Of a stretch of 41,140 bases of DNA, positions 9,151-41,140 are shown one piece after another. A model generated the notes under the pieces. That model saw nothing but the letters and a program-made list of their open reading frames with translations, was not told where the DNA came from and did no database searches. Each line of letters opens with the position of its first letter. The first letter of the stretch is position 1. Both the position numbers and the translations under genes were made by a program. The DNA is from Actinomycetota bacterium (GTDB lineage Bacteria > Actinomycetota > Acidimicrobiia > Acidimicrobiales > Ilumatobacteraceae): NCBI GenBank assembly GCA_009701715.1, contig WLJO01000022.1:1-41140 (forward strand), given 5' to 3'.

Positions 9151-9156
9151 AAACTT

Positions 9157-12764: not shown

Positions 12765-12769
12765 AAATG

Positions 12770-16461: not shown

Positions 16462-16465
16462 TCAC

Positions 16466-20984: not shown

Positions 20985-21674
20985 TCAGCCTTCGACGAGG
21001 TACGAGGCGTCGAGGCGCACAAAGCGGTTGCAGATACCAGCGAGGAACTGCTCGTTGTGCGAGGCGATCAGCAGGATCCTGCTCCGGTCGATGAGTTCCC
21101 GGAAGCGCAGTGTGGCCCGCTCGGCGAACTCGGAATCCGCCATGCCGATGCCCTCGTCAATCACGAGGATGTCTGGTTCGGCGACCGTCGCGATGGAGAA
21201 CGACAGACGCGCCACCATCCCGGCGGAGTACGTGCGCACTGGGTGCCGGAGGCGGTCGCCCAAACCGGAGAACGCGGCGATCTCGTCGACCTTGGAGTCC
21301 ATCTGCGCTGGGGTCTGGTTGATGTAGACACCGCGACGGATGATGTTCTCGTAGCCGGTGAACTGTGGGTCGAGTCCGAGTGACGAGCTGAGCATGGCAA
21401 CGACGGAGCCGTCGATCTCGACGGTTCCGCGAGTGGGCGGAAGGATCCCGGCGGCGACCCGAAGGAGGGTGGTCTTTCCTGCCCCGTTGGGCCCGACGAT
21501 GCCGATGCGCTGGCCGTCGTCAGCGTTGAGCGTGATCGTTCTGAGCGCTTCGATCGACTCGATTTCGGGGCGGCGTCCAGTAACCACCTGAACAAGCCGG
21601 CTCTTCAGGTTCATATTGTGCTCGCCATAGATGGGGAGCGTGACGTCGACGTTGCGGAGACGGATTCGCGCCAT
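20985..21674 (-). CDS. ABC transporter ATPase for polysaccharide export (Wzt/TagH-like)
   Basis: 229 residues. ATP-binding subunit of an ABC-2 glycan exporter: N-terminal RIRLRNVDVTLPIYGEHNMN, Walker A GIVGPNGAGKTTLLRVAAGI, signature VRTYSAGMVARLSFSIATVA, Walker B DILVIDEGIGMAD, and switch His in LLIASHNEQF. It is short and lacks the C-terminal glycan-binding domain of Wzt proteins that recognise a capped O-antigen. It therefore resembles TagH or capsule-type subunits that do not read a terminal cap. It lies 3 nt after the permease gene, and the two form one unit. Confidence 0.92.
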   Translation of the reverse strand: MARIRLRNVDVTLPIYGEHNMNLKSRLVQVVTGRRPEIESIEALRTITLNADDGQRIGIVGPNGAGKTTLLRVAAGILPPTRGTVEIDGSVVAMLSSSLGLDPQFTGYENIIRRGVYINQTPAQMDSKVDEIAAFSGLGDRLRHPVRTYSAGMVARLSFSIATVAEPDILVIDEGIGMADSEFAERATLRFRELIDRSRILLIASHNEQFLAGICNRFVRLDASYLVEG

Positions 21675-21677
21675 GGT

Positions 21678-22496
21678 CTACAGCCAGTACCGAATGCGCC
21701 GGCGAGAGCGGCTGAATGACACGAAGGCAATCACGAGGTTGACCACTGTTCCCGCGAGGAGCAACATCCACAATCCGCGATCTGCCGGCCGCCCGAGCAG
21801 CGGGTCCCGGGCAGACAGCACGGGCCACGCCATGGGGTTGATCACCACGACCCAATGTCGTTTTGGGAGCTGAGACGGATCCCAGAAGATCGGGGTCATG
21901 AACATCATGAGCGGAACGATTGCGTTGATCGCTACCCGCACGTCCCGGAAGCGCAGCCCGAGCGGCGCGAGCCACAGCATGGCGCCGAAGGCGTTGACGA
22001 GGATGAGAGCGAGCGCGGCGGGTACCAATCCGATCGCGGCGAGCGTCGGCCGGACCCCGTACACGATCGGGATGAGCACCATCACGACGGCACTGTGGAG
22101 GAACGTCAGTGCCTGATTGGCGAGTGATTGGAAGGTATAGAACGAGACGGGCAGGGTGGACGAGGAGAGATACGAGGCAGAGTCTGAGTAGAGCGCAGGT
22201 GCCGAGGTGAGTGCACCTGCGATGAACGACCAGATGAGCACCCCGTAGGCAAGAAGCGGGATGAAGCCCGAACGCTCAACCTTGAACAACTGGCTGTACA
22301 CCACACCGATACCGAGCACCCACACCAACTGCTGAAGTGTGATCCAGAATGGACCGAGCACCGTCCGTCGGTAACTGCTCTGGATCGACTGCCGGGCGAG
22401 CAGCCACCACGACCCCCGCTTCTCCCATCCGGCCCGGAGATCGTCCCTGGCGAGCGCGTAAGGCGATCGGTCTGGGTTCCCTACGGCAACAGTCAC
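21678..22496 (-). CDS. ABC-2 permease for polysaccharide export (Wzm-like)
   Basis: 272 residues with six predicted membrane helices. The N-terminal cytoplasmic helix and first segment (LLARQSIQSSYRRTVLGPFW; LQQLVWVLGIGVVYSQLFKV) and the C-terminal MMFMTPIFWDPSQLPKRHWV followed by INPMAWPV are typical of O-antigen/teichoic-acid exporters. It carries the lipid-linked glycan across the membrane together with the ATPase encoded 3 nt downstream. The start is GTG 22496. TAGCCT is 6 nt upstream, which suggests a leaderless promoter for the two-gene operon. Confidence 0.92.
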   Translation of the reverse strand: MTVAVGNPDRSPYALARDDLRAGWEKRGSWWLLARQSIQSSYRRTVLGPFWITLQQLVWVLGIGVVYSQLFKVERSGFIPLLAYGVLIWSFIAGALTSAPALYSDSASYLSSSTLPVSFYTFQSLANQALTFLHSAVVMVLIPIVYGVRPTLAAIGLVPAALALILVNAFGAMLWLAPLGLRFRDVRVAINAIVPLMMFMTPIFWDPSQLPKRHWVVVINPMAWPVLSARDPLLGRPADRGLWMLLLAGTVVNLVIAFVSFSRSRRRIRYWL

Positions 22497-22502
22497 CTTC
22501 GG

Positions 22503-22508
22503 AGGCTA
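22503..22508 (-). promoter_or_regulatory. Putative -10 element of the ABC exporter operon
   Basis: TAGCCT on the minus strand, exactly 6 nt ahead of GTG 22496, in the 62-nt gap after the DUF4012 gene. Confidence 0.4.
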
Positions 22509-22558
22509 CTCGTCCGGTCCGTCGGTGGGCCTGCACCCGGGGTATCGCCCGGGTGACG

Positions 22559-24835
22559 TCAGAGATCGAATCCGAAGGTGCCTGACTCGAGGATTGGGGT
22601 GGGTGTGAGCGGCTTCCCGTTGTGGGTCACCGTGAGCGGCAGTGGTTGCGCCGTCGGCGGGGCGTCAACGAGCAGTCGACGCGGCGGCCCGCCGGCTCCT
22701 GTTCCGGCGACCTCCATGGTGAGCACAACGGTCGCACCGGAGGCGATTTCGATAGTTACCGTGGCGGTGTACAGTCCGCGCTCGTTCCCGGGGTTCCACG
22801 ACACCTCCGCGTCGGGTGACATGACCGACACGATCGGTGCAGACGAGTACAGGGTGACGAGGAGTCGGTTGGTGCCGAGCGGGAGTCCGACAAGATTGCC
22901 GATCACATAGTTGGGGAGGCCCTGGGCCGGAGCGGTGTTCCGCAGGGCGAGGGTCAGGGTTCCGGCAAGATCGGCAGACCGTCGGTCGGTCTCGACCCCG
23001 TAGGACACACTGCCCTCGAGATACGCATCGATCTTGTTCCCGTTGCCGTTGTAGAGGGAGTACCCGACGACGTTGGTTGACTCGTCGAACGACAGTTCCT
23101 TGGTCATGTTCGCGTTGCGCAGAACCGCCTGTTCCTCAGGCCGGCGCGCCCACGCGGCAAGGCGGTGCTGACGGGCCATGGGGCTCATCAGGGCGGCCAG
23201 TTTCGGCGGCGACGGGAGTGCCCCGGCGAGGCTGCGGTCGATGGTGGTGCGGGCGAGTGTCTCGAGCAGGTCGACGCGGTCACCGAGGTTCTCGACGAGG
23301 TATTGGTCCCTGAGCAGATACTGGAGAGCGTTGTCGGGGGTGATCTCCACGCCGATGCCGGGGATGCTCACGGACCCGGTGATTCGCATGAGTTGCGCTA
23401 CGGCGAATACGTCCATCACGAACACCCCGTCGAGTTCGCTCCCTCCGCTCTGCGGGTACAGGTCGGCAATGGTCTCGGCCACCCAGGGGAAGAACGGGCT
23501 GACGGTGAGGTTGGTCCAGACCCCGGGCCCAACCGTGCGGGTCTCGGGATCGTCGAGGAGGTACGGGCCGTAACGCGCGAGGAACTCGCCCGGGGTCCGG
23601 GTGAGGCGCGGGGTGCGCGGTGCGGCGGCGAGGAGGTCGCCGTGGCGACCGAAGCCGGTGAGCTCGAGGCGACCGTTGTCGATCGTAATCTCGGCCCAGT
23701 TACCCATGAGCCCGCCGAGACCACGCGCCTCGGCCGGTGTGGTGAGTGCAACGAAATAGCGACGGACACCGTTGGCGCCGAGCATGTCGGGCGCCCGGAC
23801 AACGGCCTCCCGCACGTCCACGAGTTGCGTCCTCCGCTTGGCGATGTCTTGCGACAGCGACTTGATCAAGCCGTTGATCGGGGGGAACAACCAGTCCGAT
23901 CTCGCCCCGTCGGTCCGTTCCGCAAGGTCGCCCATGGCGCTGTCCAGATCCCTCAGCGGTGCGTCGAGCGCCCGGATCGCCTCCAGATTGATCCTGCCCC
24001 CGACGACGTCGAGGGCGTCGTAATCCGTCCGCTCGAGAATCGCCGCGATCTGCTCGGTGGCGGCCGCGGCCTCCTGAGCCAGTCGACGTACTGAGCGTCG
24101 CTGCTGCGCAACAAGCGGCACTGCCCGCGCCGGAACGCCCCACCACGCCCCGAGCGAATCCTCCGCACTGTTGAGGAGCCTCGATGCGTTCGCGAACCCG
24201 TCGAGCGCTGCGTCGAGTTCGCCCTGATCGACGAGTCGCAGCGCCGCCCTGGCTTCGCGCCCCCCGTTGAGCAGTCTGGAACCGGCAGTCGCCGCGGTCA
24301 CGCCGAATCCGATCACGCAGGCAAGTCCCAGACCACCGATGGCCAGCACGATGTGCTTCGAGCGACGTCGCTGGTCATCCGGTTGCCGTCCCCAAGCGAC
24401 GACGGCTACAGCGAGAGCGAGGGCGAGTCCGACCGCCGACGAGATCCCGAACGTGCCCAGCGAGCGGAGCTGGGCGAGCACCTGAGCTAGGGCGGCGGCT
24501 ATGACGGCGCGCTGTAGTTGGGTCCCGTCCCCGGAGCGCCACCAGAGCAAACCGAGGGTCACCGCAGCAACCCCGACGCAGAACGCCCACGCACTTCCTG
24601 CGAGGCCGGTGGAGACAGCCGTGCCGATCACGAGCATCCTGAGCGGGGCTAACGAGGCCAGCCACACCCAACCGGCCACCGCAACGACCACCACGGCGAC
24701 GTCGAGCACCGTCGTGCCCGTTGGCGCCAAACCGTGGGTCCCGACCGCGGCGCCCGCCGCCAGTGCGAGGGCAGCGACGCCTAGCGGCGTACGGTCGGGT
24801 GTGGAAGGGAGGGGGTTCTCGGTATTGGCGCTCAT
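22559..24835 (-). CDS. DUF4012-family membrane protein
   Basis: 758 residues. About five membrane helices occupy residues 15-205 (for example VLDVAVVVVAVAGWVWLASL and IVLAIGGLGLACVIGFGVTA). Then comes a helical region with SLGAWWGVPARAVPLVAQQR, and the DUF4012 core: RRYFVALTTPAEARGLGGLM, DNGRLELTGFGRH, FFPWVAETIADLYPQSGG, VDLLETLARTTIDRSLAG. The C-terminal 150 residues are beta-rich and probably extracellular. DUF4012 proteins often lie in actinobacterial polysaccharide loci and are thought to act at the surface; their reaction is not known. ATG 24835 is chosen because the longer frame upstream has no membrane or domain character. Confidence 0.82.
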   Translation of the reverse strand: MSANTENPLPSTPDRTPLGVAALALAAGAAVGTHGLAPTGTTVLDVAVVVVAVAGWVWLASLAPLRMLVIGTAVSTGLAGSAWAFCVGVAAVTLGLLWWRSGDGTQLQRAVIAAALAQVLAQLRSLGTFGISSAVGLALALAVAVVAWGRQPDDQRRRSKHIVLAIGGLGLACVIGFGVTAATAGSRLLNGGREARAALRLVDQGELDAALDGFANASRLLNSAEDSLGAWWGVPARAVPLVAQQRRSVRRLAQEAAAATEQIAAILERTDYDALDVVGGRINLEAIRALDAPLRDLDSAMGDLAERTDGARSDWLFPPINGLIKSLSQDIAKRRTQLVDVREAVVRAPDMLGANGVRRYFVALTTPAEARGLGGLMGNWAEITIDNGRLELTGFGRHGDLLAAAPRTPRLTRTPGEFLARYGPYLLDDPETRTVGPGVWTNLTVSPFFPWVAETIADLYPQSGGSELDGVFVMDVFAVAQLMRITGSVSIPGIGVEITPDNALQYLLRDQYLVENLGDRVDLLETLARTTIDRSLAGALPSPPKLAALMSPMARQHRLAAWARRPEEQAVLRNANMTKELSFDESTNVVGYSLYNGNGNKIDAYLEGSVSYGVETDRRSADLAGTLTLALRNTAPAQGLPNYVIGNLVGLPLGTNRLLVTLYSSAPIVSVMSPDAEVSWNPGNERGLYTATVTIEIASGATVVLTMEVAGTGAGGPPRRLLVDAPPTAQPLPLTVTHNGKPLTPTPILESGTFGFDL

Positions 24836-25032
24836 GGGTTCCCGCAGGGACGGCATCTGCGAACAGTCTCGCCGATCGCGCCAGATTCGCCCGGCACGGT
24901 GTGCCGGAACCCTGCCGAAGAGTCGGAACCCTGCCACAAAGTCTTTTAGTGAATTGTTCGCCACTGGCTGCGGTTTGGTGTAAGTTGTTCCCAGTCCTGG
25001 GTGGGACGAAAATTCTTGAGAGGTGGTTTCGG

Positions 25033-25494
25033 ATGAAGCGTTGGATCGCAGCAGTTGCCGCAGTCGGACTGGTTGTCGGCATCGCAGGCCCGGTGGCCGC
25101 GAAGGCAGTAGGCGCCAAGCCCTCCAAGTCGGTGGTCGTCAGCGCCCCGAAGTCCGTGAAGGCCCCGACGTCCCCGATCACCGGTGCACAGCCCGTGGTG
25201 CCCAAGGACCACGGCGGCGGCTACCCCGGCCCGAACCTTCCGACGGTCAAGGTCGATCCGTCCACACCGCGTCGCGGCTATCGGTTCAAGGTGAAGGTTG
25301 AGCACTTCTGCGTCCACGGCACCGTGACACTCAATCTGTCCCCGACTCTGTCCGGCTGGCCCAAGACCTTCAGCACCAACCGCTATGGCAAGGGCGAGAC
25401 GTACATCTCCGGTGGCATCCCCACGAGGGGGAACTACACCGTCACGGCCACCTGCACCACATTCTCCGCATCGAAGTCCTTCCGGGTTAAGTGA
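25033..25494 (+). CDS. Small secreted protein of unknown function
   Basis: 153 residues. A clear Sec signal peptide (MKRWIAAVAAVGLVVGIAGP, then VAAKA) is followed by a Lys/Pro/Val-rich stretch. The beta-rich domain that follows (PSTPRRGYRFKVKVEHFCVH, TLNLSPTLSGWP, GNYTVTATCTTFSASKSFRV) resembles an immunoglobulin-like fold; its two Cys could form one disulfide bond. I do not recognise a named family. A GAGAGG-type ribosome site precedes ATG 25033. It is divergent from the DUF4012 gene and 57 nt ahead of the second RgpF-like gene, so it may be a surface component of the same glycan system. Confidence 0.8.
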   Translation: MKRWIAAVAAVGLVVGIAGPVAAKAVGAKPSKSVVVSAPKSVKAPTSPITGAQPVVPKDHGGGYPGPNLPTVKVDPSTPRRGYRFKVKVEHFCVHGTVTLNLSPTLSGWPKTFSTNRYGKGETYISGGIPTRGNYTVTATCTTFSASKSFRVK

Positions 25495-25551
25495 CCCCAG
25501 CGTCCGTAGCGGGTTGACCTCCGGGCGATCCAGCAAACGAGCGGGCCAGCG

Positions 25552-26550
25552 ATGACGCCAGACGAATTGATCGTCGCGCTCCAAGCAGAGAACGATGGTC
25601 TGGCCGCGGTCATCAGGGCGATGGAGTCGAGTCGATCCTGGAGACTGACTCGACCACTGCGCAACCTTGCTGCAGCCTGGCGACGCGGAACACCGCGGAG
25701 GGCGTATCGGCAGGCGCAGCGACGCTCGGTGCTGCGCCGTGGATCGATGGTGGTCGGCATACCGCCGGTGCCCGAAGGGGATCCCTGTCCGTCGGTGTGC
25801 GCCATTGTCCACGCGTACTACCTCGAGATCCTGCCAGAGATCGTGTGGGCGCTGCAGCGGTGCGGCAGTCTCACGAACGCGCTGGTGACGTTCCCCGCCG
25901 GCGGGGAACGGGAGGGATACCGGCGCGCCGTTGCCCCACTCGTCGCAGCGGGCGTTCAGGTAGACCTCATCGCAGTAGAGAACCGTGGCCGTGACATGCT
26001 GCCCCTTGCACTCGTTGCCCAACGGGCTTTGGACACCGGAGCTGAGGTGTTCATCAAGGTGCACACGAAGCGCTCGCCGCATCTCGGGGAGCAGGGGGTG
26101 ATCTGGCGTGCGGAGCTGCTCAATGGGTTGCTGCCTGACCTCGATTCTGTTGAGCACACCGTGCGTTTCGTCGCGGCTGAACGCTCGTTCGGTTTTGGTG
26201 TGCCCATTGCGAGTCTGGGCGGGAAGGCACACCGCGGCAAGAACCGGGCAGCGCTTTCCCTCCTGTCGAGGCGCGCCGGGCTTCGCGTCCCGAGACGGCT
26301 CTATTTCCCGGCTGGGGGCATGTATTGGTGCTCCCGGGGTTGGCTAGAAACAGTTGCCGCACTTGGGCTCACCGCCGAGGACTTTGAGGCCGAACTCGGC
26401 CAACTCGACAGCACGATGGCCCACGCACTCGAGCGCCTGATCGGCTGTTATGCCGCAACCAACAAGGCCACGATCTGGGTCATGGGTACCCCGGAGGGAA
26501 TGCCACAACCGGTGGCCGTTGATGGGCTTCGCGTGGCGTTACCGCGTTGA
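25552..26550 (+). CDS. RgpF-like (rhamnan synthesis F) domain protein, copy 2
   Basis: 332 residues, clearly paralogous to the protein at 9339. Same layout: short helical start (LIVALQAENDGLAAVIRAME), SRSWRLTRPLR, then the core CAIVHAYYLEILPEIVWALQ, ENRGRDMLPLA, EVFIKVHTKRSPHLGEQGVI and WRAELLNGLLPD. The GG-rich FPAGGMYWCSRGWLE segment has its match in FPAGTMFWCGRNWLE of copy 1. Probable role in assembling the rhamnose-containing glycan. It is followed at once by the sugar-phosphate transferase, which fits a step early in chain building. The two copies sit about 16 kb apart at opposite sides of the exporter and glycosyltransferase genes. Confidence 0.8.
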   Translation: MTPDELIVALQAENDGLAAVIRAMESSRSWRLTRPLRNLAAAWRRGTPRRAYRQAQRRSVLRRGSMVVGIPPVPEGDPCPSVCAIVHAYYLEILPEIVWALQRCGSLTNALVTFPAGGEREGYRRAVAPLVAAGVQVDLIAVENRGRDMLPLALVAQRALDTGAEVFIKVHTKRSPHLGEQGVIWRAELLNGLLPDLDSVEHTVRFVAAERSFGFGVPIASLGGKAHRGKNRAALSLLSRRAGLRVPRRLYFPAGGMYWCSRGWLETVAALGLTAEDFEAELGQLDSTMAHALERLIGCYAATNKATIWVMGTPEGMPQPVAVDGLRVALPR

Positions 26551-26585
26551 CGATCGATAGGGACGCAGCGGGAAGGGAGGCTGGT

Positions 26586-27941
26586 GTGAACGTTGTCGTT
26601 GGCCGTCGTCGGCTTCGGTACGCGGTAGCGCTCGGTGACGTTGCTTGCGCGTCGCTCGCCCTCCTGTGCAGCACGGTTGTCGAGTCGAGATGGGGAGTCG
26701 ACCAGCCGCGCGGCGGCTGGATGGATGGCGGGCCCTTCGTCGTCGGCGGCGGGATCCTTGTCGTGTGGTTGGCCTCGCTTGCGCTTGCGGATTCGCGAGA
26801 CGTGAATCTCCTCCTTGCCGGCGCGGACTACTACACACGCGCAATTCGTGCCACCTTCGGTGCGTTCGGTGTTGCAGCGGTCGGCGCGCTTGCCGCAGGG
26901 ATGGACTCTGCCCGGCTGATGATCTCGCTCGGGTTCCCCCTTGGTGTGGTGCTGCTCGTCGCCGGGCGCTGGACGGTACGCAACACCCTGCTCCGCCGTA
27001 TCCGGAAGGACCCAGAGAGCTGGATCCGTCAGCGCGTGCTCACGCTGACGTCGGGGACGGGCACTGCTCCTGCCGTTCGTTTCTCGTCGGGTCAATTCCC
27101 GGTCTTCGCCGATCTCGGCTCGCTGGTGGCCACCGATCCGGAACAGGTGCTTTCGGAGGCGTCTGCGGTGGGTGCCACGCTGGTTCTGGTCTCCCGGGAG
27201 TGCACGTTCACACCCCGTCAGGTCCAGTTACTCGGTTGGCGTCTCGACAGTGTGGGTATTGGGCTCTGCGTTGAACCCTCGTCGTCGTTCATTCGCCCGG
27301 GTCAGACGTTGCTGCTCCCGCACCCGTCCGCAACCGTGCTCCTGGTGCGCACGGTTCACCTTTCCACCAAGGACCGCTTCCTCAAGAGGACGGCCGATCT
27401 GGTTCTCGCCACCCTGCTCCTGCCGTTGCTGATGCCGGTTGCGCTGCTCGCTGCGGCCGCTGTGGTGCTCGAGGACGGATTTCCAGCACGGTTCGCCCAG
27501 CGCAGGGTCGGCCGGAACGGCAGGTCGTTCACGATCCACAAGTTGAGGACGATGTATCGCGATTCCGATCGGGACCAGCCAGCGCCCCGCTCGCCGAAGC
27601 GACAGGCTGACCCGCGGTGCACCCGGGTGGGTCTCGTTCTCCGCCGTTGGTCGATCGACGAGATCCCGCAGTTGTGGTGCGTGTTCACCGGATCGATGTC
27701 GCTCGTGGGCCCGCGTCCGCGTCTCGAGGCTGAACTCGCCGACTCACCCGAGGAGTACCGGCGTTTGGAGGCGCGTCCCGGCATCTCCGGTCTCTGGCAG
27801 ACGAGCGGTCGGGCGGACCTCACCTTCGAGGATGCAGACCTGCTCGACGTGGAGTACGTGGACAACTGGTCGCTGATCGGCGACCTCGTGATTCTCGCAA
27901 GAACGGTGCGAACGGTGCTCGGCCGACGCGGGGCGTACTGA
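26586..27941 (+). CDS. Polyprenyl-phosphate sugar-1-phosphate transferase (WbaP/CpsE-like)
   Basis: 451 residues. Starts the lipid-linked glycan by joining a sugar-1-phosphate to undecaprenyl phosphate at the membrane. Four N-terminal membrane helices and a soluble middle region precede the conserved catalytic domain: FLKRTADLVLATLLLPLLMP, FAQRRVGRNGRSFTIHKLRT, then SIDEIPQLWCVFTGSMSLVG with the Asp-Glu dyad, and RPGISGLWQTSGRADLTFED. GTG 26586 has a GGGAGG site 5 nt upstream, so it is chosen over TTG 26547, which would overlap the preceding gene. It converges with the rhamnose operon. The sugar it transfers is not known. Confidence 0.9.
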   Translation: MNVVVGRRRLRYAVALGDVACASLALLCSTVVESRWGVDQPRGGWMDGGPFVVGGGILVVWLASLALADSRDVNLLLAGADYYTRAIRATFGAFGVAAVGALAAGMDSARLMISLGFPLGVVLLVAGRWTVRNTLLRRIRKDPESWIRQRVLTLTSGTGTAPAVRFSSGQFPVFADLGSLVATDPEQVLSEASAVGATLVLVSRECTFTPRQVQLLGWRLDSVGIGLCVEPSSSFIRPGQTLLLPHPSATVLLVRTVHLSTKDRFLKRTADLVLATLLLPLLMPVALLAAAAVVLEDGFPARFAQRRVGRNGRSFTIHKLRTMYRDSDRDQPAPRSPKRQADPRCTRVGLVLRRWSIDEIPQLWCVFTGSMSLVGPRPRLEAELADSPEEYRRLEARPGISGLWQTSGRADLTFEDADLLDVEYVDNWSLIGDLVILARTVRTVLGRRGAY

Positions 27942-27961
27942 GCGCACCGTCTCGGCGGTAC

Positions 27962-28825
27962 CTAGCGCTGGGAGCGCGGGAGGCGCGCAACGAGTTCGTG
28001 CAGCGGTTCGCCGAATGGTCGGAGCAGGGGAATGCCGACGGTCTGCAGGGCGATGTTGGCCAGGACGCTGTTTGCGGGACGAGGGGCAGGACGCGGCGGC
28101 TGGAGGTCCGAGGTGCTGACCGGTGTGACGCGGTCGGGGTCATGCCCGTCGGCCGCGAGCACCGATCGGGCGAACTCGAACCAACTCACAGCGCCCTGGT
28201 TCGTGGCATGCACGATGCCGGGAACGCGAGTTACCGCCAGCAGCCTGAGGAGCGGCGCAAGGTCAGCCGTGAACGTCGGGCAGCCGCGCTGGTCGTCCAC
28301 GAAGCGCAGGGGTGTATCCCCCTCGGCGAGGCGAAGGATGGTCTTGACCATGTTGGGCCCGTGCTCGCCGCACAACCAGGACGTCCGCACGATCGTCGCC
28401 GAGGGAAGGTTCGCAAGCGCTGCCCGTTCGCCGGCGAGCTTCGAGCGGCCGTAGGCGCTGAGCGGATCGGGCACGTCCTGTTCGGTATACGGCCTGTCGA
28501 GTGCTCCGGAGAACACGTAGTCGGTGGACACGTGGACGAGGTGCGCACCGACGCTGTCGGCAACCTCGGCGAGCACGCCGACGGCCGTGCCGTTGGCTGC
28601 TAGTGCCCGGTCAGGGTCGCCCTCGCACGCGTCCACAGCGGTCCACGCGGCACAGTTGATGATGACCGACGGCCGAAGCGACCGGACGGCCGCGCGAACT
28701 GCGTCCCGGTCCGTGATGTCGAGGTTGGCGCGGTCCGGTGCCGTCACGTCATCGCCGGCGTCGGCGAGGGTGAGCAGCACGTCGCTGGCCAACTGGCCAT
28801 TCGCACCCGTAACGAGCACCCTCAC
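27962..28825 (-). CDS. rmlD: dTDP-4-dehydrorhamnose reductase
   Basis: 287 residues. Last step of dTDP-L-rhamnose synthesis: reduces dTDP-4-dehydro-L-rhamnose with NADPH. The Rossmann loop LVTGANGQLASDVL, the catalytic VHVSTDYVFSG, and the YxxxK pair in YGRSKLAGE are present. The start is GTG 28825, overlapping the rmlB stop by 4 nt (GTGA); the in-frame region before it lies within rmlB. It ends the operon, 20 nt short of the convergent sugar transferase gene with no clear terminator between them. Confidence 0.94.
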   Translation of the reverse strand: MRVLVTGANGQLASDVLLTLADAGDDVTAPDRANLDITDRDAVRAAVRSLRPSVIINCAAWTAVDACEGDPDRALAANGTAVGVLAEVADSVGAHLVHVSTDYVFSGALDRPYTEQDVPDPLSAYGRSKLAGERAALANLPSATIVRTSWLCGEHGPNMVKTILRLAEGDTPLRFVDDQRGCPTFTADLAPLLRLLAVTRVPGIVHATNQGAVSWFEFARSVLAADGHDPDRVTPVSTSDLQPPRPAPRPANSVLANIALQTVGIPLLRPFGEPLHELVARLPRSQR

Positions 28826-29829
28826 GGGCTCGCCCAGGCCGAGGTCTCCACGACGGGGGAGCGCCCGATGAGCGGCTCCCACCACTGCCGGTTTGACGCG
28901 TACCACTCGATGGTGGCGTTGATGCCGTGATCCCAGTTGATGGTGGGCTGCCACCCGAGTTCCCGGCGGATCTTGGTGGAGTCGAGCAGATAGCGCCGGT
29001 CGTGCCCGGGGCGGTCCGGGACGATCGTCTTGAGCGACGAGGGTTTGCCGAGGTGGGAGAGAATGGTGTCAGCCATCTCCTCGATCGAGACCTCTACGCC
29101 GGTACCGACGTGATAGGTCTCGCCGATCCGACCCTGACCGAGAACGAGTTCGATTGCTGCGCAGTGGTCGAGTACGTGGATCCACTCCCGGCGGTTCTGG
29201 GTAGACGCGTACATCGGCAACGGGCGGTCCTCGAGGGCCTGGGTGGTGAAGAAGGGCACCACCTTCTCGGGGAACTGGTGTGTCCCGTAATTGTTCGCAC
29301 AGTTGGTCAGTGTGATCGGCAGGTCCCACGTCTCGAAATAGCTGCGCACCACGTGGTCACCGCCGGCTTTGGACGCGTTGTACGGCGTCCGCGGACGGTA
29401 CGGCGACTCCTCGGTGAATCCCGCCTCTGCGTCGAGGTCCATGTCGCCATAGACCTCGCAGGTGGAGACGTGGTGAAAGCGGTGCACTCCGGCGCGTCGC
29501 GCTGCCTCACACAGAGCCTGAGTGCCGAGGACATTGGTCCGGAAGAACCGCGCGGGGTCGAGCACCGCAAGGCTGTTGTGCGACTCGGCCGCAAAGTTGA
29601 CCACGATGTCCACCCCGTGCTTGGTCATCAGCGCATGGACGGTGTCGGTGTCCGAGATATCGGCGTGGACGAAGTGCAGCGCCTTGATGTCGTTGAGGCT
29701 CTCTCGCACCCCGGCGTACGTGAGGGCATCGAGCGCGATGATCGTGTCGTCCGGGTGGTTCTCGCGCCAGTACCGGCAGAAGTTGGAGCCAATAAAGCCG
29801 GCAGCACCGGTAACGAGCAGTGTGTTCAC
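28822..29829 (-). CDS. rmlB: dTDP-glucose 4,6-dehydratase
   Basis: 335 residues, usual length. Converts dTDP-glucose to dTDP-4-keto-6-deoxyglucose. NAD-binding loop LLVTGAAGFIGSNFCRYW, NFAAESHN, and YxxxK in YNASKAGGDH, with NCANNYGTHQFPEKVVPFF are all family marks. The active-site triplet expected as Thr-Asp-Glu reads Thr-Cys-Glu here (HHVSTCEVYGDM), so the usual general acid Asp is replaced by Cys; other residues could compensate, and the change should be noted when assigning activity. Start GTG 29829 follows a GGAG site. It lies between rmlC (14 nt gap) and rmlD (4 nt overlap). Confidence 0.9.
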   Translation of the reverse strand: MNTLLVTGAAGFIGSNFCRYWRENHPDDTIIALDALTYAGVRESLNDIKALHFVHADISDTDTVHALMTKHGVDIVVNFAAESHNSLAVLDPARFFRTNVLGTQALCEAARRAGVHRFHHVSTCEVYGDMDLDAEAGFTEESPYRPRTPYNASKAGGDHVVRSYFETWDLPITLTNCANNYGTHQFPEKVVPFFTTQALEDRPLPMYASTQNRREWIHVLDHCAAIELVLGQGRIGETYHVGTGVEVSIEEMADTILSHLGKPSSLKTIVPDRPGHDRRYLLDSTKIRRELGWQPTINWDHGINATIEWYASNRQWWEPLIGRSPVVETSAWASP

Positions 29830-29843
29830 GTGCAGGGCTTCTC

Positions 29844-30398
29844 CTACGTCCGCATCGGCCAACTGGGCTGGAGCCGTGGCTCGAGCTTGCTGCGACGGGG
29901 GTTCGCCCGGTCCCGAGCAGACAGCACTGGATCGGTGACACCCCAGTCGGCGCCGATCTGCGGGTCGTCCCACGCGACACCGAGTTCGTCGGAGGGGTTG
30001 TAGTAGCCGTCGACGAGGTACGTGATGGTCATGTCTGTGAGGGCGGAGAACCCATGAGCAACACCCGGTGGGATGAAGACACCGAGGTGGTTCTCGCCGG
30101 AGAGGTCGAGGGTGAACGTGGCACCGTCGGTTGGGCCACCGCTCCGTAGGTCGTGCAGCACCATACGGGCGGTGCCGAAGGGTACGTACCAGTAGTCGGC
30201 CTGGTGCAGGTGGTAGTGCAGGCCGACGATCGAGCCGGCGCGTCGGTCGGCGCGGTTCGATTGGATCATCTCGCGTGCACCCGGAACCCACTCCCGCCGG
30301 TAGGTCTCCACGAACTGGCCGCGATCGTCGCCGAACACCTGCGGGGACACGACGTACACGCCAGCGATGACGTCGGAGGTGGTCACGGAACTGGGCAT
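29844..30398 (-). CDS. rmlC: dTDP-4-dehydrorhamnose 3,5-epimerase
   Basis: 184 residues, cupin fold, normal length. Epimerises C3 and C5 of dTDP-4-keto-6-deoxyglucose. Family marks are DDRGQFVETYRREW, IVGLHYHLHQADYW with the active-site His, HLGVFIPPGVAHGF, and VDGYYNPSDELGVAWDDPQI. Many RmlC proteins have RGLHxQ at the first His; here Arg is Val and Gln is His, so the phosphate-binding side differs. Context in a complete rml operon still makes this the epimerase. It follows rmlA by 8 nt. Confidence 0.9.
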   Translation of the reverse strand: MPSSVTTSDVIAGVYVVSPQVFGDDRGQFVETYRREWVPGAREMIQSNRADRRAGSIVGLHYHLHQADYWYVPFGTARMVLHDLRSGGPTDGATFTLDLSGENHLGVFIPPGVAHGFSALTDMTITYLVDGYYNPSDELGVAWDDPQIGADWGVTDPVLSARDRANPRRSKLEPRLQPSWPMRT

Positions 30399-30406
30399 GG
30401 TTGGGG

Positions 30407-31477
30407 CTACTCCACGTCGATCTGGCTGTGGTCGCCGACCATCAGGCGAAGGGCCTTGGGTCGACTCTGGGAACGGGTGACGACAGCGTCCCTGCCGATC
30501 AGGGAGTCCTGCAGCCTGGGGACGTCGGTGATCTTCACGCGTTCCAGCAGCACTGAGTGCTCCACCTCGGAGTGGTCCACCTCGCAGTCGGGGCCGATCG
30601 CCGTGTACGGCCCGATGTAACTGTCCACGATGCGCGACCCTGCTGCGATTGCAACCGGCCCGCGGATTCGGGAGCGGATGACCTGTGCGCCCTGCTCGAT
30701 GATCACGCGGCCGTCAATGGTGCTGGAGCCGTCCACCTCCCCTTCGATGCGGGTTTCGATGCGCTCCAGCAGGAGGCGATTGGCCTCCAGCAGCGGGGTG
30801 AGTTTGCCGGTGTCGATCCACCACCCATCGAGCAACTGTGCCCTCACGCGGAACCTGTTGTCGACGAGCCACTGCACGGCGTCGGTGATCTCGAGCTCGC
30901 CGCGCGCCGATGGGCCGATGGCGCGCACAGCCTTATGGATCGTTGCGTCGAAGAGATACACGCCGACGAGGGCGAGATCGCTGGCTGGCTCGGCCGGCTT
31001 CTCGACCAGACGGAGTACGTCACCGCTACCGTCTAGCTCGGCAACCCCGAAGCGATGGGGATCGGGCACGCTCTTGAGCAGGATCTGTGCTGCTGGGCGT
31101 TCTGGGTCGTCGTGAAATGCACGTACGAACGTGGAGAGATCCTGTTCGAGAAGGTTGTCTCCGAGGTACATCACGAATTCGTCGTTACCGAGGAAGTCGC
31201 GGGCGATGAGCACGCAGTGGGCGAGTCCGAGCGGCTCGTCCTGAGGGATGTAGGTAATAAACGCACCCCATCGGGAGCCATCGCCCACTGCCGAGCGCAC
31301 TTCCGATGCGGTGTCGCCCACAATGATGCCGATCTCGGTGATGCCTGCATCCACCATCGACTGCAATCCGTAGAACAGGATCGGGGTGTTGGCCACCGGC
31401 ACGAGCTGCTTGGCACTCGTGTACGTGATCGGCCGCAACCTCGTCCCTGCGCCACCCGCCAGGATCAAGCCCTTCAT
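30407..31477 (-). CDS. rmlA: Glucose-1-phosphate thymidylyltransferase, long form
   Basis: 356 residues. Makes dTDP-glucose from glucose-1-phosphate and dTTP, first step of the rhamnose pathway. The N-terminal nucleotidyltransferase signature is MKGLILAGGAGTRLRPITYT, with SAKQLVPVANTPI, MYLGDNLLEQDL and VEKPAEPASDLALVGVYLFD following. Past residue 250 there is a hexapeptide left-handed beta-helix (IDGRVIIEQGAQVIRSRIRG), the mark of the long archaeal/actinobacterial form rather than the 290-residue RfbA. ATG 31477 has TAGGCT 7 nt upstream and opens the operon rmlA-rmlC-rmlB-rmlD. Confidence 0.95.
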   Translation of the reverse strand: MKGLILAGGAGTRLRPITYTSAKQLVPVANTPILFYGLQSMVDAGITEIGIIVGDTASEVRSAVGDGSRWGAFITYIPQDEPLGLAHCVLIARDFLGNDEFVMYLGDNLLEQDLSTFVRAFHDDPERPAAQILLKSVPDPHRFGVAELDGSGDVLRLVEKPAEPASDLALVGVYLFDATIHKAVRAIGPSARGELEITDAVQWLVDNRFRVRAQLLDGWWIDTGKLTPLLEANRLLLERIETRIEGEVDGSSTIDGRVIIEQGAQVIRSRIRGPVAIAAGSRIVDSYIGPYTAIGPDCEVDHSEVEHSVLLERVKITDVPRLQDSLIGRDAVVTRSQSRPKALRLMVGDHSQIDVE

Positions 31478-31484
31478 CGAATAG

Positions 31485-31490
31485 AGCCTA
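31485..31490 (-). promoter_or_regulatory. Putative -10 element of the rml operon
   Basis: TAGGCT on the minus strand, 7 nt ahead of rmlA's ATG, in the 43-nt gap after the nitroreductase stop. Suggests that the rhamnose operon has its own leaderless promoter. Confidence 0.4.
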
Positions 31491-31520
31491 GACGGGCGGG
31501 CCGGGCATGTCTTGATCGCG

Positions 31521-36844: not shown

Positions 36845-37984
36845 TCAGGAACGGACTGCGAGGCCGGAGGCAGCGAGCATCTCGAGCCACGTCTCCACGG
36901 CCACGCCGGTCGCCTCGTCCGGGGAGTCGGCGAGGAGCACCGACGCTGGTGTCGGTTCGGCGAGGATCTCCCAGAGGGCGATCCCGAGCGCGTCGAGGCG
37001 CGCGAACCGCCGTGTCGTCGGTTGGTACGCAACGCCGGACCCGTCGTCAAACGCCCATGCCACGCTGTCAGCGGCTAGGCACCAACCCCACCCTGTCGCC
37101 GCGCTTGCGGAGCGTCCCGGCAGCCGTCGGTGGCCGACGACAGGACTTCCGGCAGCCTGCTCCCACGCAGAGGCCACAAGTGCCGACGCCACCTCGACAT
37201 CGTCGAAATGCAGGTGCCAGGCCGGGCACCTGCTCGCGATGCCGACGAGTACAGCGCACGCCTCGGTGCCGAGCCGCTCGGTGTCGTGACAGCACGACAC
37301 GAGGAAGTCGACAACATCGGCCCGGTTGTCGAACGGGATGAGTGAGTTGGTTGCGCTCCGCCGGTACTGCGGGGCGAGCACGACGGTGGGCAGTACAGCG
37401 GCACCCGCCGCTCGTCCGCCGAGTTCGCGCAGCGATGTCTCGACACGGTGGTAGTCGTCGCGTTTGCGCTCGCCGCCGATGCCCTCAAACAGGTGCCACA
37501 CACCCTGCCGCAGCGTGAGGGGGCGGGGGTAGGGCTCGATGCGCGTGCCCTCGCGGTCGAAGGTGATCTGTTCGTCGGTGACGTACTCCCAGCCGGACCG
37601 TACGAGGCGGGCAGTGAGCGTGGACTTCCCATCGCCGGACCGACCGGCCATCACCACGGCGCGGCCGTCGCGGGCCACGCCGGCTGCGTGCAGGTGCACG
37701 CGGTCCGGTTCGCTGTCCAGCTTGCGGTGGTTCAGTACCCGTGTGATCTCCAGCTCGTGCGCGGCGAGGTCCGGGTGCTCGAGAAGTGGGATTCCGTCAA
37801 GCATGCTCACGAGCATCCCCGTAGCGCCGTGGCTGATTGATACGCGCAATTCCTCGGTGCTGCTGCCGGGTTCGGCGTCGGGGAACCCGGCGTAGAGGTC
37901 GTCCCATCGGGCGATGATTCCGGGGTCGGTGGCCCCGACCGTGACGCGAAGCGGCCCGACGGCGATCGGCCGGGAGTGAAGCAT
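36845..37984 (-). CDS. HPr-kinase-like P-loop protein fused to a PqqD-like domain (A)
   Basis: 379 residues from ATG 37984 (GTG 38017 or 38041 are possible but would enter the divergent promoter). Residues 1-90 are a beta-rich part. Then comes a HprK-like kinase core: HLHAAGVARDGRAVVM, Walker A AGRSGDGKSTLTARLV, and the acidic switch WEYVTDEQITFD. A variable helical region follows, and the last 70 residues (YQPTTRRFARLDALGIALWE, LADSPDEATGVAVETWLEML) read as a PqqD-like winged helix. HprK folds phosphorylate Ser or peptides; PqqD folds bind leader peptides in RiPP systems. The pairing in one chain suggests a peptide- or protein-directed kinase. Family function not established. Confidence 0.75.
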   Translation of the reverse strand: MLHSRPIAVGPLRVTVGATDPGIIARWDDLYAGFPDAEPGSSTEELRVSISHGATGMLVSMLDGIPLLEHPDLAAHELEITRVLNHRKLDSEPDRVHLHAAGVARDGRAVVMAGRSGDGKSTLTARLVRSGWEYVTDEQITFDREGTRIEPYPRPLTLRQGVWHLFEGIGGERKRDDYHRVETSLRELGGRAAGAAVLPTVVLAPQYRRSATNSLIPFDNRADVVDFLVSCCHDTERLGTEACAVLVGIASRCPAWHLHFDDVEVASALVASAWEQAAGSPVVGHRRLPGRSASAATGWGWCLAADSVAWAFDDGSGVAYQPTTRRFARLDALGIALWEILAEPTPASVLLADSPDEATGVAVETWLEMLAASGLAVRS

Positions 37985-38052
37985 CGGTGCGGAACCCCCG
38001 CCGTCACTGCCTGTCACAGCAACGAACGCTACCCACAGCACCGGGCCACCCG

Positions 38053-38058
38053 TATCCT
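38053..38058 (+). promoter_or_regulatory. Putative -10 element of the HprK-PqqD (B) operon
   Basis: TATCCT ends 6 nt before GTG 38065. The 80-nt gap between the two divergent kinase-like genes is the only promoter space for both. Confidence 0.45.
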
Positions 38059-38064
38059 GCGGTC

Positions 38065-39243
38065 GTGATGAGCAGTGAGACTCTCGGTGGGCGGGTGCGG
38101 GTCCCGGTGAGGATTGACCGCTATCTCGCCACCATCGATGTTTCCGAGGCGATCGCGTCGAGCACCCGAGGCCTGTTGGTCGATCTGGTCCGCACGGATA
38201 CCGAGGTGGTCGGGGCGCTCATCGTCGTCGACGACCGGGGTCGGATCACGGTGGACGGTCGGCAGTGGGACGCTGGGCAGGACCAGACCGTGTTCGACCA
38301 GTTGGTCTATGTGCTCCTGCAGGCCTCCCTCGACGCGGACCCGGATCGCCTGCACCTGCATGCAGGGCTCGTCTCGAGGTCCAATCGCGGGGTCCTGATC
38401 GGTGGGCACGCCGGGTGCGGCAAGTCCACACTCGTTGCGCAGTTGCTCCGCGCCGGGTTCGACTACCACACCGACGAGCGCGTGGCCGTCGACGACGCGC
38501 TGGCGCTCGGTCCTCTCCCCAAGCCACTGTCGGTCGTCGCCGGTTCGTTCCCCGTGCTCGCCGAGTTCGACCCCACGGCCACGGGGCACGGCGTTGCATC
38601 CCCGAGGCTGTGGCACGTCCCGGCGAGCGTGATTGGACCGGGATCGGCGCGGACGTCGCCCCCCGAACTCGCCGGCATAGCGCTCGTCGAGTACCGCGTC
38701 GGGGCCGCGCTGGATTCGGCCGAGATGCACCCGATCACGGTCGCCCGGGTGCTGCTGGCAGACAGCATCGACGTAGATCGGTACGGCTCTCGTGGGCCGT
38801 TGCTCGTCACGAGGTTGTGCGCTTCGGTACCCTGTCGTTCCGTGATCCATGGAGGTGGCGCTGACGTTGCGGGGTTCCTGAGCGGCTTCGCAACCGGGAC
38901 CGATTCGTTCGCCGGCGCCGAGGTAACGCAGATCCTCGCTGCCTCCGATGCGCGTCCCGCTTCGGGTGCTCCCGTACCCGTCGACCTCCGTTCGGTCCTC
39001 GGCCCGGCAAGCGGAATTGCCGGTGCAGCAGCAGCGGACCGGGCGCTCATCCGAACGGACTCCGGGGCGCTCGTCGAACTCGACGAGGGGCAGACCGCAT
39101 GGTTCCAACTACTTGACGGCTACACCGCGCTGAACGTTCTGGTGCGCGAGGTTGCCGAATCCATCGGTCTCGACGAGCACGCGATCGGCGCCAGTGCGGT
39201 ATCGGTGTTGAACGGTCTCGTGGCGCTCGGGGTAGCGGCATGA
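38065..39243 (+). CDS. HPr-kinase-like P-loop protein fused to a PqqD-like domain (B)
   Basis: 392 residues from GTG 38065 (ATG 38068 is next in frame). Same plan as the divergent gene: beta-rich N-terminus, then LHLHAGLVSRSNRGVLIGGH, Walker A GGHAGCGKSTLVAQLLRAG, acidic switch FDYHTDERVAVDD, a middle region unlike the first protein, and a PqqD-like end (LVELDEGQTAWFQLLDGYTA; LDEHAIGASAVSVLNGLVAL). The N-terminus and P-loop align well with protein A, while the middle does not, so the two are likely paralogues with different targets. Overlaps the next gene by 4 nt (ATGA). Confidence 0.75.
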   Translation: MMSSETLGGRVRVPVRIDRYLATIDVSEAIASSTRGLLVDLVRTDTEVVGALIVVDDRGRITVDGRQWDAGQDQTVFDQLVYVLLQASLDADPDRLHLHAGLVSRSNRGVLIGGHAGCGKSTLVAQLLRAGFDYHTDERVAVDDALALGPLPKPLSVVAGSFPVLAEFDPTATGHGVASPRLWHVPASVIGPGSARTSPPELAGIALVEYRVGAALDSAEMHPITVARVLLADSIDVDRYGSRGPLLVTRLCASVPCRSVIHGGGADVAGFLSGFATGTDSFAGAEVTQILAASDARPASGAPVPVDLRSVLGPASGIAGAAAADRALIRTDSGALVELDEGQTAWFQLLDGYTALNVLVREVAESIGLDEHAIGASAVSVLNGLVALGVAA

Positions 39244-39731
39244 ACGGCGCCAACGACGTGAACGGGGCCGACGACGCGGCCGATCCCTTTGCAGGTCGCC
39301 CCGAAACGGTCACTATCGAGGGTGTCGGCGAGGTGCCCGTTGTCTACACCGAGAACGACGAGGCGCCGCTGCCGCCTGTCGGTCCGGCGGACGTCTTCGT
39401 GATCAGCCCGGAGGCCACGTGGGTGGTGCTCGGCGACGAGGTGGTCGTCCATCATGCAGCCTCGTCCACGAGCCACGCGCTGGACCGTGTCGCTGCCCTG
39501 CTCTGGCAGTGCCTCGATGCGGAGAGCACCCTGCACGACGTGCTCAGCGATCTGGCGGACGCGTTCGGTGTCCCGCTCGACGGGATCGTCAACGATCTCG
39601 CCACGGTGGTCGCAACATGGAAACGCGACGGACTCGTTGTGCATGCGGGCAGTTCACCTTCGTTGGCGCCCACCGGGTCGAGGTCCGGTACCCCGGCCCT
39701 TCGGCACTTGGTCGACCCACCCAACAATTGA
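39240..39731 (+). CDS. Stand-alone PqqD-like protein
   Basis: 163 residues. The first 60 residues are acidic and probably loose (NGANDVNGADDAADPFAGRP). The rest has the PqqD-like beta-strand and helix pattern: FVISPEATWVVLGDEVVVHH, SHALDRVAALLWQCLDAEST, LHDVLSDLADAFGVPLDGIV, NDLATVVATWKRDGLVV. Free PqqD proteins bind the leader of a precursor peptide and present it to a modifying enzyme. Here it starts inside the stop of HprK-PqqD B (ATGA), so it is made with that protein. No precursor peptide gene was recognised nearby. Confidence 0.65.
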   Translation: MNGANDVNGADDAADPFAGRPETVTIEGVGEVPVVYTENDEAPLPPVGPADVFVISPEATWVVLGDEVVVHHAASSTSHALDRVAALLWQCLDAESTLHDVLSDLADAFGVPLDGIVNDLATVVATWKRDGLVVHAGSSPSLAPTGSRSGTPALRHLVDPPNN

Positions 39732-39749
39732 GACGGTGCTGCGCGGTCC

Positions 39750-40472
39750 GTGTGGCCGCACTCCTTGGTGATCGGTGTGCACGGGTCGGCCGTCACGATC
39801 GGCACCGATGACCCCGGTCTGGTGGGCTTCCTCGAACCTTGGCGGATTGACGAGCCCACGAGCATCGTGGACTTCGGTCTCGAGACCGCGCCGGCCCAGC
39901 CGACGGAGCGCTCAGCGCCCCGGATCCTGCCCAGTCTCAAGCACGGTTCGGAGCCGATTGCCCGCGTCGAGGACGCGGCATTCCTGCGGGATGCGCTGTT
40001 ACGCATGGTTGTTGCGGCGACCTCTCCGGTGCCGAGGGGACTCCTCAGGGTGAACGGCACCGTGCTCGAGAGCAGCGGGGTCGGTCACCTGGTCCCCGAG
40101 CCCAACCTACGGACGGTGTCCCATCGGGCCCTTGGCCGTCGGGGGATCACGGTCCACGTGGGCCAGACGGTGCTCGTGGACGTCGAGACCCGCGAGGTGG
40201 TGCTCGACGTGCCGCTCGGCATCGATACCCCGGGCCGTCGGCTTGCACTCGCGTCCTGGTGGATGAACCATCGGGAACCGGCCATCCCCACCACCCCCAC
40301 CGAGGACGTTGCCCGCCTGCTCGGCAACGTTGTGATTGACGCCGAACTTGTTGCCGAGCAGGCTTCGTTGTGCTCACTTGCAGCGCGGCTGGTTACGTCG
40401 ATGCGCCCTCGCTACGTCGCCTTCGGTCGGCAGTCCCTTGAAAACGAACTCACCGCCCTGTTCGGGCGGTGA
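39750..40472 (+). CDS. HprK-like protein without a Walker A loop
   Basis: 240 residues. Its opening (SLVIGVHGSAVTIGTDDPGL) resembles the beginning of protein A (PLRVTVGATDPGII), and the central LLRVNGTVLESSGVGHLV stands where the HLHAAGV strand and P-loop would be, but no GxxGxGK sequence exists. The later HVGQTVLVDVETREVVLDVP fits the strand pairs that follow a P-loop core. It looks like a degenerate paralogue that may have a structural role with the two kinases. The start GTG 39750 is 18 nt after the PqqD-like stop. The C-terminal codons form half of a terminator hairpin. The family link is tentative. Confidence 0.5.
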   Translation: MWPHSLVIGVHGSAVTIGTDDPGLVGFLEPWRIDEPTSIVDFGLETAPAQPTERSAPRILPSLKHGSEPIARVEDAAFLRDALLRMVVAATSPVPRGLLRVNGTVLESSGVGHLVPEPNLRTVSHRALGRRGITVHVGQTVLVDVETREVVLDVPLGIDTPGRRLALASWWMNHREPAIPTTPTEDVARLLGNVVIDAELVAEQASLCSLAARLVTSMRPRYVAFGRQSLENELTALFGR

Positions 40473-40475
40473 GTT
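40447..40475. terminator. Perfect hairpin terminator closing the HprK-PqqD set
   Basis: A 12-bp perfect stem (40447-40458 with 40464-40475) and a TGTTC loop. It overlaps the last eight codons and the stop of the upstream gene and lies 35 nt before the end of the convergent gene at 40510, so it may serve both. Confidence 0.8.
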
Positions 40476-40509: not shown

Positions 40510-41140
40510 CTACTTGCAGCGAACCCGGAACAAGATGCCTAACTTGCAGCGGTCGTTCTCCCCACCACCGGTGCGACCGGTGTGGTAGTAGACGGTGCCG
40601 GTGAAGTGGTCGCCGCCGGTGCAACCACCGGGCGCTACTGCCGTGCCGCCGCCCGTGCCGATCGGAGTGTCCGAGGAACCCTGTGCCCAGGTGGTGGGTG
40701 CAGCGGTCTCGTTGGTCGGGTCGCAGGGCGCCTTGCTCTGCGGGTTGCAGACCACGTGCTCCACGACGATCTCGCAGTTGCTGTCCTGTGACGTGATGGC
40801 CACTCCACCACCGTGGTAGTAGTACGCCTCAACCGTGTTCTTGCCCTCGGACCCCGGGATGTTGTTCGGGTTGCCGGCGAACACGACACCGCGGTTGGTG
40901 CCGTCAACCTTCACATTGATGTTCATCGTCTGGCCGGCACCGGAGTCTGTCTTTGCGACCACTCCGTCAACCGTGTTCACGACGTCGGCGTGCCACTTGC
41001 CAACCTTGCCGTTTTGGTTCGGCGAGAACCATACGCAGCACGTGCTGCTCTGCACGCGGTAACTGTCGAAGCCCGCTGCGGCGTACGCCGGGATGGACTT
41101 CATCATCGGCACCGTGTACACCACTGCTCCGGCGGCCGCA
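40510..41140 (-). CDS. Cys-containing, probably exported protein, 5' end outside the window
   Basis: About 210 residues are present; the frame is open through the right edge, so the true start lies beyond. The first visible residues (AAAGAVVYTVPMMKSIPAYA) look like the end of a signal or membrane segment. The rest is Gly-, Asn- and Thr-rich with eight or more Cys (STCCVWFSPN, SNCEIVVEHVVCNP, APCDPTN, GGCTGGDHF, DRCKLGILFRVRCK), suggesting disulfide bonds outside the cell. I do not recognise the family. It may relate to the HprK-PqqD genes or may only be a neighbour on the other side of the terminator. Confidence 0.6.
   Translation of the reverse strand, partial: AAAGAVVYTVPMMKSIPAYAAAGFDSYRVQSSTCCVWFSPNQNGKVGKWHADVVNTVDGVVAKTDSGAGQTMNINVKVDGTNRGVVFAGNPNNIPGSEGKNTVEAYYYHGGGVAITSQDSNCEIVVEHVVCNPQSKAPCDPTNETAAPTTWAQGSSDTPIGTGGGTAVAPGGCTGGDHFTGTVYYHTGRTGGGENDRCKLGILFRVRCK

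Follow-up and report, generated by a model that had tools for sequence, protein, structure and literature searches.

A gene cluster of HprK-like, PqqD-like and nucleotidyltransferase proteins associated with a twin-arginine signal protein in an Ilumatobacteraceae genome: a candidate maturation system for an exported protein

We describe here a gene cluster located at the right-hand end of contig WLJO01000022.1 (C15) of an Actinomycetota bacterium of the family Ilumatobacteraceae (assembly GCA_009701715.1; a genome of 2.8 Mb in 96 contigs, 97.35% complete). The window, that is the whole stretch of DNA analyzed, corresponds to the entire contig, 41,140 nucleotides in length. A first-pass annotation had delineated four genes, here named A to D: two divergent fusions of an HPr-kinase-like (HprK-like) core with a PqqD-like tail, a separate PqqD-like protein and a fourth kinase-like protein devoid of a Walker A motif. 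All four were found again at the same positions (Table 1), and the coupling of the PqqD gene to one of the kinases was confirmed, the start of C (39240) overlapping the stop of B (39243) as ATGA. A further gene, E1, is interrupted by the end of the contig.

Table 1. Features of the cluster and their coordinates in the window
Feature	Coordinates	Strand	Description
Gene A	36845..37984	-	HprK-like core and C-terminal PqqD-like module; 379 aa; GTG start also possible upstream, at 38041
Walker A of gene A	37622..37645	-	Residues 114-121; conserved H99 before, D137 after
PqqD-like C-terminal module of A	36854..37078, limits approximate	-	Identified by family profile
Gene B	~38068..39243	+	HprK-like with C-terminal PqqD-like module; candidate starts 37987, 38068, 38095
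Gene C	39240..39731	+	PqqD protein
Gene D	39750..40472	+	P-loop-less HprK-like protein; PqqD-fused in other genomes
Gene E1	40510..41139	-	Exported protein, candidate substrate; N-terminus cut off; convergent to D

No precursor or partner enzyme had initially been recognized in the window, which turned out to be an artefact of the contig edge, because C15 ends inside the cluster. Besides E1, present in the window, the missing components are found in the first 2 kb of another contig of the same genome, C4, which carries a second E-type gene (E2), a second PqqD gene (PqqD2) and a nucleotidyltransferase gene, matching PF14907 with 104.9 bits (cut-off 31.2), followed by gltB, named by eye. In a genome of the same genus, at the locus denoted L035, the set is found in one piece, in the order gltB (by eye), nucleotidyltransferase (PF14907, E-value 3.6e-31), PqqD, E, D, C, B, A and nitroreductase; the L035 nucleotidyltransferase, used as a query against the genome under study with E-values up to 10, had a sole match, at C4:959-2026. 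Judged by synteny with L035, C15 and C4 are neighboring contigs, and the composite order reads gltB (by eye), nucleotidyltransferase (PF14907), PqqD2, E2, contig gap, E1, D, C, B, A, nitroreductase. E1 and E2 share 89.4% DNA identity over 470 bases, and this near-identity may be the cause of the assembly break. That the two are strain variants of a single gene, and not tandem copies, is the less favored view, since such a level of identity favors two copies, short of proving it. Intergenic gaps within the assembled parts of the cluster do not exceed about 110 bases, leaving little space there for a further precursor gene.

Comparison with L035 yielded, for the four window genes A to D, synonymous substitution rates (dS) of 1.18-1.44 and nonsynonymous rates (dN) of 0.44-0.57: dN being well under dS, these are genuine genes and not chance open reading frames (ORFs). 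For the wider set of A to E plus the nucleotidyltransferase, identity to the L035 counterparts is 43.6-56.4% (43.6% for A, 48.6% for B), with dS of 0.94-1.70 and dN of 0.40-0.57; the nitroreductase, enoyl-CoA hydratase, GntR, aconitase and RmlA genes on the flanks show 79.6-90.7% identity and dN values of 0.07-0.15. The cluster is under purifying selection, yet the block evolves several times faster than its flanks.

Both A and B match the HprK_rel_A family TIGR04352 (E-value 4.6e-22 and 78.4 bits for A, 2.1e-12 and 46.7 bits for B), below its cut-off of 200, and reach only 16.4 and 18.9 bits against the HprK equivalog TIGR00679, whose cut-off is 240 bits. A kinase profile, built from 13 relatives and compared with the Protein Data Bank, retrieved HprK structures as top matches (1ko7, 6.8e-9; 1jb1, 4e-8; 2qmh, 4.1e-8; 3tqf, 2.4e-5). 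Residues H99, G119, K120 and D137, in A numbering, are invariant across the 13 sequences, and A and B align with HprK at its catalytic His, at the Lys of Walker A and at the first Asp. A role of B as an anti-phage protein was also considered and rejected, the only match being to mad8 (E-value 0.0024), along a 35-residue stretch in the P-loop region.

C is recognized by PF05402 with 37.9 bits and PqqD2 with 26.0 bits (cut-off 23.4); C scores 25 bits against TIGR04353, under the cut-off of 35, and its sole match among solved structures is a weak one, to TbiB1 (E-value 0.19). The tails of A and B were detected by a family profile, for which 15 stand-alone PqqD proteins served as input and which was run with filters off: the A tail matches at an independent E-value (i-E) of 1.8e-6 over residues 303-352, with a six-frame match from 36854 at 6e-5, and the B tail at 3e-5, or 1e-3 in the larger six-frame set. 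Tails of the syntenic L035 kinases match at 0.0023 and 0.00014. These matches, along with those to TIGR04352, bear out the fusion architecture first proposed for A and B. PF05402 is found at three places in the genome, two of which inside this cluster, and up to five PqqD modules are present per locus among the homologous clusters (L038, L039).

D matches no Pfam or NCBIfam family and no solved structure. Alignment by hhalign of 19 D-like with 30 kinase sequences gave a probability of 96.4 (P 1e-9, 226 columns); an earlier comparison, based on few sequences, had been weak, with a probability of 45.4. Decoy comparisons scored 0.1 (D with nucleotidyltransferase), 0.2 (D with PqqD), 0.0 (kinase with nucleotidyltransferase), 7.1 (kinase with PqqD) and 0.4 (nucleotidyltransferase with PqqD). 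Notwithstanding its alignment with the kinase family, D has no Walker A motif or P-loop; on this profile evidence it is classified as an HprK-like protein which has lost its P-loop, in agreement with the initial description of a fourth kinase-like protein. At four other loci (L080, L082, L083 and L091), the D domain follows a PqqD domain within a single fused protein, and these fusions suggest that C and D probably form one functional unit.

The coding sequence of E1, as assembled, begins within a hydrophobic signal which ends in PAYAA. Its L035 orthologue, 52% identical, is complete and features a polar leader and an SRR motif, followed by the same hydrophobic stretch. The N-termini of 17 E-type proteins define the consensus RRxxLxRxAVxGAxVWxAPxxLSxxAxA, of the twin-arginine translocation (Tat) type; the E protein of L084 exceeds the cut-off of the Tat signal model TIGR01409 (21.6 bits, cut-off 16.7), and TatC is encoded in the genome under study. 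A profile of this signal, searched against 516 called proteins from the loci, selected 20 at an E-value of 1.1e-4 or better, 11 of which were seeds, the next match standing at 0.099. In the genome under study, only E1 and E2 were selected at 1e-3 or better, among the 25 of 56 first-look candidates which were scored. A later listing includes 58 distinct signal proteins at 1e-5 or better, and many of their mature regions contain several Cys residues. The mature E protein of L035 matches no solved structure. At three loci, E-type proteins are encoded next to giant exported ones, about 2200 aa in length (L045 2072-8752, L051 6040-12723, L043 10194-16742); the one at L045 features DUF11 and GEVED domains and a C-terminal Peptidase_C25 domain, of the gingipain family.

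The association between signal and cluster was evaluated in both directions. In the forward direction, 21 loci around kinase matches were inspected, the window plus 20 places chosen from 45 listed rows: 11 carry the signal at an i-E of 1e-3 or better. L044 has a weaker match, at 1.1e-4 in a smaller protein set. In the reverse direction, the signal profile alone was searched in 296 genomes from the class and in 346 from the phylum, and a site was counted as positive when a kinase, D, PqqD or nucleotidyltransferase gene was found within 8 kb. Scoring covered 40 of 57 non-seed rows from the class and every one of the 12 rows from outside it (8 genomes), "non-seed" referring to the signal profile only, as the kinase and D profiles include sequences from some of these genomes, such as G003. 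Within the class, 8 of 16 sites were positive at an E-value of 1e-6 or better, 5 of 5 between 1e-6 and 1e-5, and 4 of 19 between 1e-5 and 1e-3; in other classes the corresponding figures were 7 of 10 and 2 of 2 for the two stronger ranges. Pooling all sites at 1e-5 or better gives 9 of 12 outside the class and 13 of 21 within it; the latter figure would become 13 of 22 with an extra G438 row (1.2e-6), whose locus is already among the misses. None of seven fetched weak sites, showing no signal by the local profile, had a component nearby (0/7). As a background, 100 genomes of the class together contain 50 PF05402 places, which amounts to about 0.3% per 16 kb, an estimate covering PqqD only.

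D and the signal also tend to occur in the same genomes. Among the 296 genomes, with both E-values at 1e-5 or better, 15 contain both, 4 D only (G416, G135, G139, G142), 8 the signal only and 269 neither (Fisher p 2.7e-16); the signal limit was fixed after the list had been viewed, and the draw of 296 genomes is taken to be the same for D and for the signal. Relaxing the signal limit to 1e-3 gives 16/3/29/248 (p 4.2e-12), removing the five signal-seed genomes, with D-profile seeds retained, 10/4/8/269 (p 3.8e-11), and counting by genus, by hand and without seed genera, 5/3/8/127 (p 1.3e-4); all these p-values overstate independence, the genomes being related. Chance composition of the neighborhood was rejected: the surroundings of homologues, which the first-pass annotation had proposed to survey, are conserved and not random. 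Gene set, conservation, domains, signal and association are all read from the sequence itself.

On these grounds we propose, with a probability of about one half, that the cluster serves to mature the Tat-exported surface protein E, which would be modified by the PqqD, kinase and nucleotidyltransferase proteins before its export in folded form. The identity of E as substrate, the residue modified, the order of the steps and their chemistry are what we infer. E would be synthesized in the cytoplasm with its polar leader and stereotyped twin-arginine signal. The PqqD modules (C, PqqD2 and the tails of A and B) would bind the leader and hold E, as suggested by the role of PqqD as a leader binder and by the association described above. 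A and B, to judge from their HprK-type site, could then use ATP to phosphorylate a Ser or Thr of E, with D, together with C, as a putative non-catalytic partner subunit, a role consistent with the lost P-loop and the PqqD-D fusions. By analogy with PsmN, which acts after PsmK in pseudomycoidin, the nucleotidyltransferase may add a sugar or a nucleotide to the phosphate, and the modified, folded E would finally leave through the Tat pathway, as its signal and the presence of TatC suggest.

Homologous clusters often lie, by eye, amid genes for chain-length determinants, nucleotide-sugar dehydrogenases and glycosyltransferases (e.g. L082-L085, L089-L091, L149, L150, L154), which may place the product in the envelope or capsule. 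More tentatively, since we hold it to be somewhat improbable in this general form, a single Tat signal could mark diverse clients of a cytoplasmic machine, made of PqqD, HprK, P-loop-less HprK and PF14907 proteins, which installs a phosphate-linked group prior to export; this group is possibly the attachment point of an envelope polysaccharide. If so, a Tat-type signal would be for Tat-exported proteins what sorting signals are for wall or outer-membrane anchoring, leader-guided modification in the style of ribosomally synthesized and post-translationally modified peptides (RiPPs) would extend to whole surface proteins, and the export of folded proteins by Tat would explain why modification can precede export. 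PqqD/HprK/nucleotidyltransferase sets would in any case gain concrete candidate clients, namely Tat-signal proteins recognizable by profile in more than one actinobacterial class.

Several observations weigh against this proposal. Ten of the 21 kinase loci have no signal match at 1e-3, one of them, L036, being cut by a contig end, and strong signal sites lack any component within 8 kb in 8 of 21 cases in the class and in 3 of 12 in other classes. Some class misses can be accounted for: in G367, G385 and G338 the contigs bearing the sites do not exceed 10.5 kb and D is found on other contigs of those genomes, and in G088 D is about 9 kb away. The remaining misses are unexplained, namely G035 (two), G087 (one of two) and G438 in the class, and G589 (two of four) and G809 in other classes. 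BLAST at an E-value of 1e-3 sorts the mature regions of the 58 E-type proteins into 29 groups, the largest with 11 members. Such diversity is surprising for a single kinase specificity unless guidance comes from the leader alone, and no conserved acceptor residue was identified in E-type proteins. The Tat model TIGR01409 is just missed by E2 (14.1), by the E protein of L035 (15.9) and by that of L038 (16.2), and the E protein of L045 does not match it at all. The Pfam PqqD model does not match the tails of A and B at an E-value of 1 or better. In both A and B, the second Asp of HprK is replaced by Glu, and a His-Lys-Asp-Asp set is described as required in lasso-peptide kinases in a review (PMC9266682). 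Finally, the AlphaFold models are of low confidence, with a mean predicted local distance difference test score (pLDDT) of 28.2 for A and 31.5 for D; being unusable, they leave the fold assignments of A and D to the profiles.

Other readings of the cluster have to be considered. Regulatory control of polysaccharide formation, in which an envelope or regulatory protein would be phosphorylated to govern capsule assembly and E would be a structural component of the same envelope layer, is in keeping with the function of HprK as a regulatory kinase and with the company, by eye, of polysaccharide-type genes at homologous clusters; in the window itself, a polysaccharide export and dTDP-rhamnose (deoxythymidine diphosphate-rhamnose) locus, with ABC-2 export, spans about 15.7-31.5 kb, some 5 kb from the cluster. 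Here, however, genes for aconitase, GntR, enoyl-CoA hydratase and nitroreductase (some named by eye) part the two, and up to five PqqD modules (L038, L039) plus a nucleotidyltransferase exceed the needs of a switch, which makes this reading quite unlikely. We give very little credit to the idea that A and B are ordinary HPr kinases of carbon control, located here by chance: HprK is indeed their best match among solved structures, but scores far under the equivalog cut-off, the PqqD-like tail, the occurrence of two copies along with a P-loop-less one, and the conserved company of PqqD and nucleotidyltransferase genes led us to reject it.

A RiPP-like system acting on a short peptide encoded elsewhere, with E as a bystander sharing the locus, seems unlikely to us, though it finds several points of support. 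Lasso kinases act on short precursors (PMC9266682), a related PqqD is named a peptide chaperone in NCBIfam, the gap between C15 and C4 is unread, and kinase loci with no E-type gene exist (L041, L046-L050, L053, L054), so that kinases of this type can work without E. Against a bystander role of E stand the co-occurrence of signal and D across genomes and the ability of signal sites to predict the cluster in other classes, as well as the scarcity of room for an additional gene in the assembled parts of the cluster.

The pairing of HprK-like and PqqD proteins is itself already known. NCBIfam names an "HPr-rel-A system", composed of a kinase (TIGR04352) and a PqqD family peptide chaperone (TIGR04353), in which an HprK-like kinase is likewise found beside, or fused with, PqqD, and the two are encoded together here as well. 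A (78.4), B (46.7) and C (25) score under the cut-offs of these models (200 and 35 bits), hence the window proteins are not filed as members; the present cluster differs, moreover, by its third copy, devoid of a P-loop, and by its partner with a Tat signal. With HPr(Ser) kinase/phosphorylase A and B appear to share the P-loop core and the His-Lys-Asp part of the site, and differ by their PqqD-like module, their gene context and their scores. A search of plasmids with A retrieved a relative on one Methylobacterium plasmid, pMt-1 of Methylobacterium tardum, which bears the annotation "PqqD family peptide modification chaperone" and has a nucleotidyltransferase family protein encoded nearby; the PqqD module, C-terminal in A and B, is apparently N-terminal, by eye, in the Methylobacterium fusion.

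Lasso-peptide clusters provide a second term of comparison. According to the review (PMC9266682), a kinase of this sort may be paired with a nucleotidyltransferase (PadeK, ThcoK; PsmK with PsmN), PsmK and PsmN adding a phosphate and then a hexose to a precursor Ser, with true nucleotidylation left possible. A nucleotidyltransferase partner is likewise present here, on C4, but the substrate of the lasso systems is a short peptide, in contrast with the candidate of about 200 aa, exported and endowed with a Tat signal; no lasso cyclase or leader peptidase was recognized by eye in C4:1-14000 and in the window, where no dedicated model search was made.

PEP-CTERM/exosortase systems combine one stereotyped signal, carried by many mature domains, with dedicated processing genes and a membrane protease. 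The E class similarly features a single signal before diverse mature domains; its signal, however, is N-terminal and of the Tat type, and the neighboring enzymes are of cytoplasmic kinase and transferase types. In the open-licence literature searched, we found neither the P-loop-less partner nor a tie to a protein class defined by a Tat signal, nor any substrate class assigned to PqqD/HprK/nucleotidyltransferase sets. The first-pass annotation had presented the locus as a candidate for an undescribed kinase system directed at peptides or proteins: the conserved neighborhood does point to protein-targeted kinases, while HPr-rel-A and the lasso pairs show that the system is not wholly undescribed. 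What appears new, within the literature searched, is the tie to Tat-signal proteins and the P-loop-less partner.

Relatives were also sought by two scans of genome contigs, which returned none by that route; among viral contigs, one short locus matched. At L118, three tandem E-type signal proteins are encoded at about 8000-9540, with no kinase, D, PqqD or nucleotidyltransferase gene within 8 kb. In the window, the region 15700-31500 contains genes for an ABC-2 transporter, a MoxR-like ATPase, a bacterial sugar transferase, RmlD, a sugar dehydratase and a DUF4012 protein, and a transposase-like ORF pair, perhaps an insertion element, is found at 11556-12784, the second ORF matching HTH_21 and the first being assigned by eye. 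Contig C70 of the same genome carries a second set (L041, 1795-5774), consisting of PqqD-like, HprK-like kinase and PF14907-like nucleotidyltransferase genes, along with two glycosyltransferase-like genes and no Tat-signal match; kinase sets related to this one are present in two genomes of the same genus (L048, L049).

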